A stretch of DNA of 32,653 nt from Bacteroidaceae bacterium (GTDB lineage Bacteria > Bacteroidota > Bacteroidia > Bacteroidales > Bacteroidaceae): positions 1 through 32,653 of the forward strand of contig JAFZYE010000031.1 of NCBI GenBank assembly GCA_017616445.1, in the 5' to 3' direction. The notes beneath the pieces were generated by a model that was not told the DNA's origin, ran no database searches, and saw nothing but the letters and a program-made list of their open reading frames with translations. This document shows, in pieces, positions 13,664-16,805 of this stretch (the first letter of the stretch is position 1; every line of letters begins with the position of its first letter). The position numbers and the translations under genes are program-made.

Positions 13664-13694
13664 TTTGTCGTTTGGGAAATAATGATTATTTTTG
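13664..13694 (+). promoter_or_regulatory. Bacteroidetes-type promoter of the glycoside hydrolase gene
   Basis: TTTG (13664-13667) and TATTTTTG (13687-13694) are spaced by 19 bases. The promoter overlaps the upstream in-frame ATG at 13682, so translation should begin at the ATG at 13742, which also gives a proper signal peptide. Confidence 0.7.
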
Positions 13695-13741
13695 CACTCA
13701 CAACGTTTACAGATTATAAACCATATCAAATCATCATAAGC

Positions 13742-16525
13742 ATGAGACTACTAACTATCACATTAATTGCACTTTTCATTGTTACAGGAAAACTGTCGGC
13801 CGCCAATTCGAAACAGACGGTCACACAAGTTACTTCAGCTGTCACCATCACAGATGATGTCGACTATATCATCACAGGCACAACACCCTTTACCACAGCT
13901 GGAAGTGTTAATATAGAGAATACCAACCATGCGGTTGTCATCGTCAAGCGCATCAAACCCAGTGCTGTCATCAAGTCGTGGATGAGTTTCATCTATATCA
14001 ATGGTGAGAAAGCGGTAAACGGGACCAACTGCCAAGTGAAGATGTACGACCGTGGTGCCATCATCTTCCCATACGGGAAAGACTTCAAACCCCTTACCTG
14101 CTACACAGAGAAGCGTTTTTTAGGAGAGTCATCCAACGACTATACAGAGGGGAGTAGCGGTGGATTCATGAAGGATCTCACGACAGCAACCCTGAACAAC
14201 AACATCAAGTCATTCAAGTTGAAACGTGGCTATATGGTCACCTTCGCTTTAGGACGCAGTGGATGGGGCTACAGTCGCTGTTTCATTGCTGATCAGGAAG
14301 ACCTTGAAATCGATCTCCCTGTCAACATGAGCGGTCGTGTATCATCATATCGTCTGTTCCAATGGTTCAACGCCCACAAAGCCGGACTAGCCAGCAACGG
14401 CGACTACGCTGCCAATTCTGCCCTCAACTCCTCGTGGTGTTACGATTGGGGACAAGGCAATGACAGCAACCTGCCCGATGTGGAGTGGGTACCCAACCAC
14501 ATCTACGAAGACTGGCCTTCTGCTGCTACCTGTGGTGGTGTTACGGGATCGTGTCACATGAAGACCAACAATGAACCAGGCAATAGTGCTGACGACCATC
14601 CGCAGAGTGTGGATGTGGTACTTGACAACTGGCAGAACCTTATGCGTACAGGTATGCGTCTCTGTTCCGAGAGTTCACACGATGGCAGTTGGGGTCACCT
14701 GCGTGCTTTCATCGACTCCATCGATGCACGCGGATGGCGATGCGACCTGCTTGACCTCCATTGCTACTGGGGAGCTCCCAGTTTCAACGACTTCAGCTAC
14801 TACTACAACAACTATGGCGGACGCCCCATTTGGATTTCAGAATGGGTGTGGGGTGCCAGTTGGAATGCAAGCAACTGGAGCAGCGGCGGCATTTTTGCTC
14901 AAGCACCCGACGGCAAGGATTCGTTTTCTGCAGCCAACCAGCAGAAATGCTATGAAGGCACAAAACCCATCCTCGACATCCTAAATGCTAGCAAATATGT
15001 CGAGCGATATGCCTATTGGAACAGCGAAGCCGATGCATCGAAGATATACCGAGACGGGCAACTCTCCACACTTGGCAAGTACTATGCAAGTATGGACGAG
15101 GGACTTGGCTATAACGCCTCCATCCAGAAAGTACCAAATGTGGTCTACCTCAAACCGACAGACCTGACAGTAACCTTCAACAATTCATCAGGTACATGCA
15201 CCTTGAAGTGGAACGACCTCAACGGTGATATGCTCGACTCCATGACCGTCGAATGCATGCGACCTGGCACCTCAAAGTATGTGTGGATTGGCAACGTAGC
15301 CCTCAAGGATATGTCAGCCAAGACTGGTGCATCCTACACCTTCAACGACCCCCATCCTGCATCAGGAGCCAACTACTACCGCATCGCAGCTTACCCTATC
15401 GGCAACAAGACGCCGAAATACTCGGGTGCCACACCTATCTCTGTCAGCTCTTCTGCGGGTAACGACATCATCCAATACGGACAACTTGACGTCACCAGCC
15501 TCGAAGCCCTCACCATCAATTTCAATACCACGATGACCGAAACGCCAGCCGTCTTTATGGGTATCGCTACGAACAAGAATGCCAACACCAATCCTGTGAC
15601 CCTCATCGACAAAGCATCAACGAAGAGTTTCACCTATAAGATGATTCCATGGGCTTACTCTGGTACCCAGACCCTCAGTTCAAAAGAGTCCGTCCCGTTC
15701 ATGGCAATGGTTCCAGGCAACTATATCTATGGAGCGATGACGATCGAAGTGGGTAGCACGAAACTCATCAGCGACACCGTTCAAGTCACCTTCCAACAAC
15801 CGTTCCCCGATGGAGTACTACCAGTTGTGATTGCTGAAGCCCGACCGTCCATCAAGAACAACACCATCAATCTACGCATCTGGGATGTCACCAACACAGG
15901 TTTCAAGGCCATCGCACTCTATGAGGGAGGTGTGGGAAAGCGTATCACACTCAACCAAACTGTCAACTACCTAGCATCTACACCCGGTCAGGCCACCATA
16001 GGCAATCAGGTACTCTTCAGCGCAGGACATTCTGCTGACCTCGTCTATGGCAGCAAATCCCAGAGGAAAGCACTCTTCCAACAGAACAATCCCGATGGCA
16101 CCGTTCCTGAAGGAGCAGACTCCTTAGCACTCGAAGACCCACTCATCTTCGGAGCACTCCAAACCTTCAACTACCCAACGGCTACCGTCCTTCGCCGTAC
16201 CATCGACTACACAGCCCTCAACTCCGACGGTAAGCTCCTCGTCTATGGAACCCGCATCATTCGTAATGTCGACACCTCTGCCACATCTTACAAGAATGAC
16301 CTCACCAGTGCCGATCGCTTCGGTTGGATATGTCTCTCCACCCCACAGCAGCAAGTTATCGTAGCTGATGTCAACCACGACGGAACCGTCGACACACAAG
16401 ATGTTCTTGCCATCTATCAATACATGCAAGACGGATCTGGCGATGGAGACTGCGACGTGAACAACGACAGCATCGTTGACACTCAAGATGTCCTTGCGGT
16501 TTACGAATACATATTGCAGCATTAA
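13742..16525 (+). CDS. Secreted glycoside hydrolase (clan GH-A-like) with dockerin-like C-terminus
   Basis: A 927-residue exported protein; MRLLTITLIALFIVTGKLSA is a signal peptide. A unique N-terminal beta-rich domain comes first (about residues 25-200). A TIM-barrel-like domain follows, with KTNNEPG (E278, likely acid/base) and IWISEWVWGASW (E367, likely nucleophile), the pattern of clan GH-A and the glycosyl hydrolase catalytic core families. A fibronectin-III-like domain starts near residue 475 and more beta-rich sequence follows. The end carries two Ca-binding dockerin-type repeats, DVNHDGTVDTQDVLAIYQYM and DVNNDSIVDTQDVLAVYEYI. The substrate is unknown; plant or host glycans are likely. 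It is monocistronic. Confidence 0.8.
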   Translation: MRLLTITLIALFIVTGKLSAANSKQTVTQVTSAVTITDDVDYIITGTTPFTTAGSVNIENTNHAVVIVKRIKPSAVIKSWMSFIYINGEKAVNGTNCQVKMYDRGAIIFPYGKDFKPLTCYTEKRFLGESSNDYTEGSSGGFMKDLTTATLNNNIKSFKLKRGYMVTFALGRSGWGYSRCFIADQEDLEIDLPVNMSGRVSSYRLFQWFNAHKAGLASNGDYAANSALNSSWCYDWGQGNDSNLPDVEWVPNHIYEDWPSAATCGGVTGSCHMKTNNEPGNSADDHPQSVDVVLDNWQNLMRTGMRLCSESSHDGSWGHLRAFIDSIDARGWRCDLLDLHCYWGAPSFNDFSYYYNNYGGRPIWISEWVWGASWNASNWSSGGIFAQAPDGKDSFSAANQQKCYEGTKPILDILNASKYVERYAYWNSEADASKIYRDGQLSTLGKYYASMDEGLGYNASIQKVPNVVYLKPTDLTVTFNNSSGTCTLKWNDLNGDMLDSMTVECMRPGTSKYVWIGNVALKDMSAKTGASYTFNDPHPASGANYYRIAAYPIGNKTPKYSGATPISVSSSAGNDIIQYGQLDVTSLEALTINFNTTMTETPAVFMGIATNKNANTNPVTLIDKASTKSFTYKMIPWAYSGTQTLSSKESVPFMAMVPGNYIYGAMTIEVGSTKLISDTVQVTFQQPFPDGVLPVVIAEARPSIKNNTINLRIWDVTNTGFKAIALYEGGVGKRITLNQTVNYLASTPGQATIGNQVLFSAGHSADLVYGSKSQRKALFQQNNPDGTVPEGADSLALEDPLIFGALQTFNYPTATVLRRTIDYTALNSDGKLLVYGTRIIRNVDTSATSYKNDLTSADRFGWICLSTPQQQVIVADVNHDGTVDTQDVLAIYQYMQDGSGDGDCDVNNDSIVDTQDVLAVYEYILQH

Positions 16526-16533
16526 CTCCACAC

Positions 16534-16578
16534 AAAAAAAGAACAGCGGGCATCCTTTCAGGGTTGCCCGCTGTTCTT
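16534..16578 (-). terminator. Intrinsic terminator overlapping the end of a small gene
   Basis: AAGAACAGCGGGCA (minus, 16578-16565) pairs perfectly over 14 bp with 16552-16539, and a T run follows at 16538-16534. The 12-base loop (16564-16553) contains the stop codon of the small minus-strand gene. The plus strand lacks a strong T run but may also stop the convergent glycoside hydrolase transcript. Confidence 0.85.
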
Positions 16579-16719
16579 ATGCTTCACCTTTCGCGTATAC
16601 GACTTCTTTGACCGATGTGTACGGTTAAATGAATGAAATCCGGGACCGAGCAGTTCTCGCTCCGCCTCCCGTCCTCCACGTTTCATTGCCTTGATGGCAT
16701 CCAGATTCAACCTTTTCAT
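16558..16719 (-). CDS. Small basic protein, ArfA-like ribosome-rescue factor candidate
   Basis: A 53-residue protein, MKRLNLDAIKAMKRGG... ending HKNSGQP. It has 15 Lys/Arg, 3 His and only 4 acidic residues, so it is expected to bind RNA. Two segments recall ArfA, which recruits RF2 to stalled ribosomes: an N-terminal LDAIKAM (ArfA DNAIEAL) and a C-terminal SKKSYTRKVKHK (ArfA GKGSYMRKGKH). The middle (LLGPGFHSFNR) is unlike ArfA. The terminator stem begins at codon 48, immediately after the conserved motif, and the stop codon lies in its loop. In proteobacterial arfA a hairpin inside the gene yields nonstop mRNA, so the protein is removed by tmRNA unless trans-translation fails. A -7 box lies 79 bases upstream. 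Alternative: an unrelated small ribosome- or RNA-binding protein. Confidence 0.7.
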   Translation of the reverse strand: MKRLNLDAIKAMKRGGREAERELLGPGFHSFNRTHRSKKSYTRKVKHKNSGQP

Positions 16720-16797
16720 GTTAGTGCTATGTTTGAAATCTTGAGTCCTGACTACTTTGTTCTTGCGTAGACTTCATCTATTCAATTATTTTCGTTG

Positions 16798-16805
16798 CAA
16801 AAGTA
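16798..16805 (-). promoter_or_regulatory. -7 box TACTTTTG for the small ArfA-like gene
   Basis: On the minus strand TACTTTTG precedes the ATG by 78 bases. No good TTTG -33 is seen at the expected spacing. It supports independent transcription of the 53-codon gene. Confidence 0.6.

Follow-up and report, generated by a model that had tools for sequence, protein, structure and literature searches.

A Bacteroidales family of small basic proteins with repeated in-gene terminators and a likely ArfA/BrfA-type role in ribosome rescue

Introduction

Does a 53-codon gene on the minus strand (16558..16719) of a 32,653-nucleotide stretch of Bacteroidaceae DNA, hereafter the window, encode a Bacteroidota counterpart of the ribosome rescue factor ArfA, and does the terminator hairpin that encloses its stop codon place it under the same non-stop control? 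The preliminary description of this locus had raised both possibilities from the SYTRKVKH tail of the protein and from the stem that starts directly behind it. Bacteroidota are among the commonest gut bacteria. Among the titles and abstracts listed by our searches of open-licence PubMed Central, we found no ArfA-like non-stop rescue factor described in this phylum. The available text of a 15,259-genome survey puts arfA in 0 and arfB in 1,426 of the 1,956 FCB-group genomes, and states that arfA was detected with nucleotide profiles of known arfA genes (PMC11633108); the survey would therefore be blind to the Bacteroidales family described here. The accessible part of PMC6514570 names ArfB and the VLRF-1 family in Bacteroidetes and no ArfA-like protein, while that of PMC8012679 confines ArfA to a subset of beta- and gammaproteobacteria. 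In a word search, 'Bacteroid' was absent from PMC8012679 and PMC8874680, and the accessible portion of a jumbo-phage review (PMC7824862) names other rescue routes, ArfA being absent from that portion.

Results

The window gene and its terminator hairpin

The open reading frame runs from an ATG to a TGA stop (16560-16558) and encodes a small basic ArfA-like protein whose C-terminus reads SYTRKVKHKNSGQP, as had been described. The tail motif SYTRKVKH, which the family alignments show to be conserved, occupies codons 40-47 (16579..16602, minus strand). AlphaFold2 predicted a helix of residues 2-24 (codons at 16648..16716, minus strand) followed by a flexible tail, with low global confidence (mean pLDDT 73.6, pTM 0.37). 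Comparison of this predicted fold with the PDB by Foldseek returned 0 matches, and searching PDB sequences with the family profiles gave unrelated low scores only, with neither ArfA nor BrfA retrieved.

At codon 48, 22 nt past the Tyr codon, begins the 5' arm of a terminator hairpin (16539..16578, minus strand) that was recognized by its fold and by its terminator score on both strands. Its two arms, AAGAACAGCGGGCA (16578-16565) and TGCCCGCTGTTCTT (16552-16539), form a perfect 14-bp stem with the TGA in the loop, and are accompanied by a run of seven T (16534..16540, minus strand), two of which lie within the stem. The folding energy computed for the hairpin region as RNA was -34.8 kcal/mol (z -6.46), with 0 of 200 shuffles equally stable. 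The stem, T run and loop stop lie at the positions given in the preliminary description. On the other side of the gene, 78 nt from the ATG, TACTTTTG (16798..16805, minus strand) fits TAnnTTTG, the consensus of the Bacteroidota -7 element; the fit is weak evidence, and a second match lies at 16880-16873.

The hairpin is closely approached from the opposite strand by a gene for a dockerin-bearing glycosyl hydrolase (Glyco_hydro_cc, Dockerin_1; 13682..16525, plus strand), whose stop codon lies 13-15 nt from the stem. The same hairpin also scores as a plus-strand terminator, with a T tract of 2.42 on the plus strand versus 4.66 on the minus strand. It may serve both convergent genes and is probably an ordinary, bidirectional terminator, and the overlap between stop codon and hairpin at the window gene would be explained by its being the shared terminator of a tight convergent pair. 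The stop codon of the window gene lies upstream of the expected termination point.

A patchy family in Bacteroidales

The window belongs to a 2.38-Mb draft genome that is 70% complete. Searching its GTDB family for homologues of the 53-residue protein, as the preliminary description had proposed, revealed relatives in 15 of 101 genomes (own included), and the same 15 were found with the broad profile; the existence of these relatives argues that the window ORF is not a chance reading frame. In the order, the narrow profile matched 25 of 295 genomes, and the broad profile 26 of 295 at E<=0.01 and 24 of 295 at E<1e-5 (own included in each case), and in the phylum, matches occurred in 3 of 296 genomes, of which only two are convincing: that of the window and a second from its GTDB family. 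A search of genome contigs yielded 25 loci with relatives, in metagenome-assembled genomes, the majority from the rumen, that are labelled Prevotella, Prevotellaceae, Bacteroidaceae or Bacteroidales, along with one Muribaculaceae and one Paludibacteraceae. Deeper samples contained relatives in 24 of 118 genomes (family of genome G497) and in 13 of 18 (family of genome G448), both families having been picked for deepening after members with terminators inside the ORF were noticed there. Since the protein of one locus in this set (L122) is identical to Parabacteroides distasonis WP_005861590.1, the family of G497 is probably Tannerellaceae. Overall, the protein family is patchy and absent from most genomes of the order. 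No model in Pfam or NCBIfam claims the window protein, and NCBIfam membership was also rejected for four relatives. At one locus (L012, G090:C159), an in-frame TAG lies in the middle of the conserved core, apparently reflecting a broken copy or a sequence error.

The family protein is conserved across most of its length, with a broad consensus of D-Y-x-K-A-x-R-K-x-S-R-E-x-E ... V-H-x-S-K-K-x-Y-x-R-K-x-K(H); the core of the window clade reads LLGPGFHS. Every row of three alignments (20, 28 and 19 rows) has R17, K39, Y41 and R43 (numbered as in the window protein), and K-x-Y-x-R is found in 90 of 93 members (missing in L028, L065 and L129). The basic YxRKxK(H) tail, in which a likeness to the SYxRKxKH of ArfA had been noticed, is conserved at the level of the family.

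Many relatives carry a terminator inside the reading frame

In each member, the sequence starting at the conserved Tyr was searched for hairpins with a T tract behind them. Among the 93 distinct members, the best terminator lies inside the ORF, with its expected end ahead of the stop, in 41, after the stop in 11 and across the stop in 4 (the window gene, L031, L052 and L118), and 37 have none; under a strict cut (dG <= -9, T score >= 2.4), the corresponding counts are 41 inside, 7 after, 2 spanning and 43 without. As controls, 289 neighbours at these loci, each 100 codons or longer, were scanned from 25 codons before the stop, and here 3 had a terminator inside, 44 after and 7 across the stop, with 235 lacking one, under the strict cut (11, 65, 17 and 196, respectively, without the cut). 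Scanning the control genes over 50 codons gave 9 of 289 inside. Control genes with a convergent neighbour within 300 nt had an inside terminator in 1 of 81 cases, and in 2 of 81 with the longer scan. The family members with long open frames were scanned over a longer stretch than the control genes. A strong stop-spanning terminator as such is not very rare, being present in 7 of the 289 control genes. When the 41 tails were shuffled synonymously, 4 of 4100 shuffles scored as high as the observed terminator; for 37 of the 41 members, it was 0 of 100.

The ratio of 41 to 93 is not a prevalence, because the two most deeply sampled families were chosen after in-ORF members had been seen, which raises the in-ORF fraction; the first survey, before these families were deepened, gave 13 of 57. 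Near relatives are also counted separately in the ratio. The in-ORF members are spread over ten GTDB families (f1, f52, f54, f58, f68, f73, f99, f105, f109 and f154, with L142 belonging to f105). In all 41, the stem begins 7-26 nt past the conserved Tyr codon. For 39 members, the distance from the stem to the stop is 3.7 to 51 codons; for the other two (L116 and L120), whose frames stay open for some 240 codons, it is about 239.

The position of the stem is shared, but its sequence is unrelated between lineages. An AAGGC..GCCTT type accounts for 23 members with 19 distinct hairpins, and the other 18 in-ORF members have stems such as TCCGGAT, GGAGGCTGT, GACCGGA, TCTCGACCG and further types. Within the AAGGC group, the first five pairs are invariant and the inner pairs change on both sides: pair 8 is A-T, G-C, G-T or C-G, and pair 7 is broken in 1 of the 19. 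The P. distasonis gene shares the in-ORF layout: it reads AGGCAGATGCCCAGAGGCATCTGCCT and then TATTTGTTTT, with its stop 18 nt past the stem. Like the window gene, L118 (genome G780) and the phage locus L146 have a terminator whose hairpin loop contains the stop; the close relatives of L118 (L113-L115) are of the in-ORF type. A weak T tract follows the in-ORF hairpin of L145, which lies on a 6-kb unverified scaffold filed as phage (MT837887.1) and may be bacterial DNA.

The window clade lacks in-ORF terminators

In a tree of 87 rows and 56 columns with many weak forks, the window gene sits in a 36-row clade (support 99/93) that holds 0 in-ORF members, whereas the remaining 51 rows hold 40. Within this clade, apart from the window gene, a terminator spans the stop only in L031, and weakly (-8.2 kcal/mol). 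The preliminary description would have counted homologues without the tail or without the overlapping hairpin against its reading; in the window's own clade, this applies to the hairpin and not to the tail. The proposed arfA-like non-stop control finds its counterpart in the relatives (41 of 93) and is unsupported at the window gene, because the stop precedes the termination point, the clade contains no in-ORF member and the hairpin also scores as a terminator for the convergent gene. Non-stop control is apparently missing, as judged from these scans, from the Prevotella relatives and from most phage copies.

In the GTDB family, a tmRNA scored above the Rfam cut-off in 90 of 101 genomes, among them that of the window, and the same was seen in 33 of 40 genomes that carry in-ORF members. 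For the other 7 carriers, no tmRNA exceeded the cut-off in a scan that scores part of the candidates; one of them is a single-contig genome in which 27 of 47 tmRNA candidates were scored, and the missing tmRNAs may be assembly or search misses. Among the 101 genomes, tmRNA above the cut-off was lacking in 3 of 15 family carriers versus 8 of 86 non-carriers.

Copies on large phage genomes

Scans of IMG/VR revealed, among the matches listed, at least 15 loci, whose contigs measure between 14.9 and 436 kb; two of the phage-contig loci (L158 and L159) encode an identical protein, and in two others (L168 and L169) the match is confined to the tail. One further member (L146, locus 1501-1605) is carried by the GenBank phage LR745206.1 (634,780 bp). 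The 16 phage loci listed comprise 1 with an in-ORF terminator (L160), 1 with a terminator spanning the stop, 2 with a terminator after it and 12 with none. Neighbouring genes, scanned in part for L146, L157, L160, L161, L164, L165 and L170, include a terminase (L170), a polynucleotide kinase and a sigma factor (L161) and a head-tail adaptor match (L146), as well as DnaJ near the member in L146, L157 and L165. Given these phage-type neighbours, several of the loci are phage genes. In L146, L157, L164 and L165, the member adjoins a gene of 259-266 codons without a Pfam family. PHROGs held no family for the window protein and gave weak matches only for five phage members (best E 0.0074), and profile A2 as a query against viral contigs led nowhere.

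Relationship to ArfA

Scored on the broad family profile, E. coli ArfA reached 12.2 bits, with 0 of 3000 shuffles as high, and on the narrow profile 9.9 bits, with 2 of 3000 as high. Most of this signal comes from the tail, on which the ArfA-to-profile alignments centre. They fall downstream of LDAIKAM, so that the equation of this helix with the DNAIEAL of ArfA, suggested earlier, is not supported; when ArfA residues 1-33 alone were shuffled, 27 of 3000 shuffles on profile A2 and 181 of 3000 on profile A1 scored at least as high as the real sequence. Alignment of ArfA with the three family alignments by hhalign gave a short, weak match (probability 25, 58 and 18%), and in the reverse test with an ArfA profile, only 12 of 88 family cores scored higher than the 99th percentile reached by shuffled cores. 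The ArfA family PF03889 was rejected for the window protein, with no profile match to it at E 10 and none in its own genome; the same tool returned 9.2e-26 for E. coli ArfA and 2e-23 for Vibrio ArfA. Homology of the family to ArfA is therefore suggestive at best on sequence grounds. Since homology to PF03889 is not supported, the alternative that the preliminary description had also offered, a distinct or convergent family, fits better than kinship with ArfA.

Discussion

A Bacteroidales family with repeated in-gene termination is well supported at the level of sequence, and from it we infer a role in ribosome rescue. We consider it likely that the family represents an ArfA/BrfA-type alternative rescue system, with non-stop control in many relatives and an ordinary stop in the window clade. 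When a ribosome stalls on an mRNA that lacks a stop, the basic tail SKK-x-Y-x-RK-x-KH would thread into its vacant mRNA channel, and the helix at the N-terminus would help to recruit a release factor, so that the peptide is freed. Where the terminator lies inside the ORF and works as predicted, the factor's own mRNA would be stop-less and trans-translation would tag and destroy the product; the factor would then accumulate only if the capacity of tmRNA/SmpB is exceeded. Members of the window clade, the window gene among them, have an ordinary stop and would probably be constitutive or otherwise controlled. Against this reading stand the 52 of 93 members, window gene included, that are without an in-ORF terminator, as well as the short and weak ArfA match, the 7 in-ORF carriers with no tmRNA above the cut-off and the patchy distribution of the family.

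The window gene itself could also be expressed from a non-stop mRNA if an RNase III-like activity cleaved its stem before the stop. The hairpin begins within the range of distances from the Tyr codon seen in the in-ORF members, a loop stop recurs in L118 and in the 634-kb phage LR745206.1, and both arfA and brfA are described as RNase III-cleaved in the available text of PMC11633108 and PMC6881298. However, the stop is situated upstream of the T run, the 36-row clade offers no in-ORF member and no second stop-spanning one beyond the weak L031, and strong stop-spanning terminators also occur in unrelated neighbouring genes at the frequency given above; we regard such cleavage as unlikely.

A similarly low probability attaches to the idea that the protein binds the ribosome for another purpose, for instance as a factor in hibernation or assembly or as a translation modulator of phage origin, the in-ORF terminator in some lineages being a tmRNA feedback unrelated to rescue. 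A small, basic protein that is found in large phages, and many of whose members lack non-stop control, would suit this idea, but in all 41 in-ORF cases the terminator stands directly behind YxR, and to our knowledge the only experimentally characterised factors with a terminator behind the tail, arfA and brfA, are rescue factors. That the ORF is the leader peptide of an attenuator for a downstream gene appears extremely improbable: the terminator does overlap the end of a short ORF, and 14 of the 41 in-ORF members are followed by a co-directional gene, yet the following gene is convergent in the other 27, the window and P. distasonis genes both face convergent genes, and conservation extends across most of the protein.

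The preferred reading, alternative rescue with non-stop control in many relatives, shifts the interest from the window gene to these relatives. If a non-stop-controlled factor does operate in Bacteroidota, this would show that cells repeatedly invent the same circuit, in which a backup protein uses its own broken mRNA to sense failure of the main system, and a conserved YxR with an immediate in-frame terminator would be a signature for finding more such factors. The phage-borne copies raise the question of who controls ribosome rescue in infection. It is conceivable, although we lean slightly against so broad a claim, that a release-factor-recruiting rescue family arose within Bacteroidota separately from ArfA and BrfA, with stop-free mRNA in many lineages, and that large phages carry constitutive copies which free ribosomes from cut mRNAs during infection without host tmRNA.

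Among proteins to which the family can be compared, DUF7230 (PF23876), which is without known function, matches weakly over the same tail: E<=1 was reached by 8 of 20 members, the best at 0.0097, and these matches fall below its curated cut-off; E. coli ArfA itself matches DUF7230 at E 0.11. DUF7230, phrog_2701 and phrog_6310, all small proteins of no known function, weakly match the YxRKxKH tail and may be rescue-like factors too. ArfT of Francisella is short with a basic tail, as is the family, although this tail reads KKGGSTNKK and not YxRKxKH, and it resembles the window clade in being without a terminator or RNase III site before the stop, according to the available text of PMC6299226.

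ArfA (YhdL, PF03889) of Gammaproteobacteria and some Betaproteobacteria shares with the family its small size and a YxRKxKH tail that follows lysines, but the alignments place KGKGS before the Tyr in ArfA and SKK-x-Y-x-RK there in the family, and the N-terminal halves differ. A terminator before the stop has been described for arfA and is likewise present in many of the relatives, whereas the window gene would retain the stop in its transcript. BrfA (YqkK) of Bacillus subtilis, compared here by its description only, is reported in the accessible part of PMC6881298 to have an N-terminal helix and a later basic region with a Lys-His pair contacting 16S rRNA, a layout in which K49-H50 of BrfA would correspond to K46-H47 of the window protein. 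The same text places an intrinsic terminator within the coding region of brfA and states that the fusion product was seen only without SmpB (PMC6881298). This architecture of arfA and brfA, with the terminator ahead of the stop codon, is common to 41 members of the Bacteroidales family.
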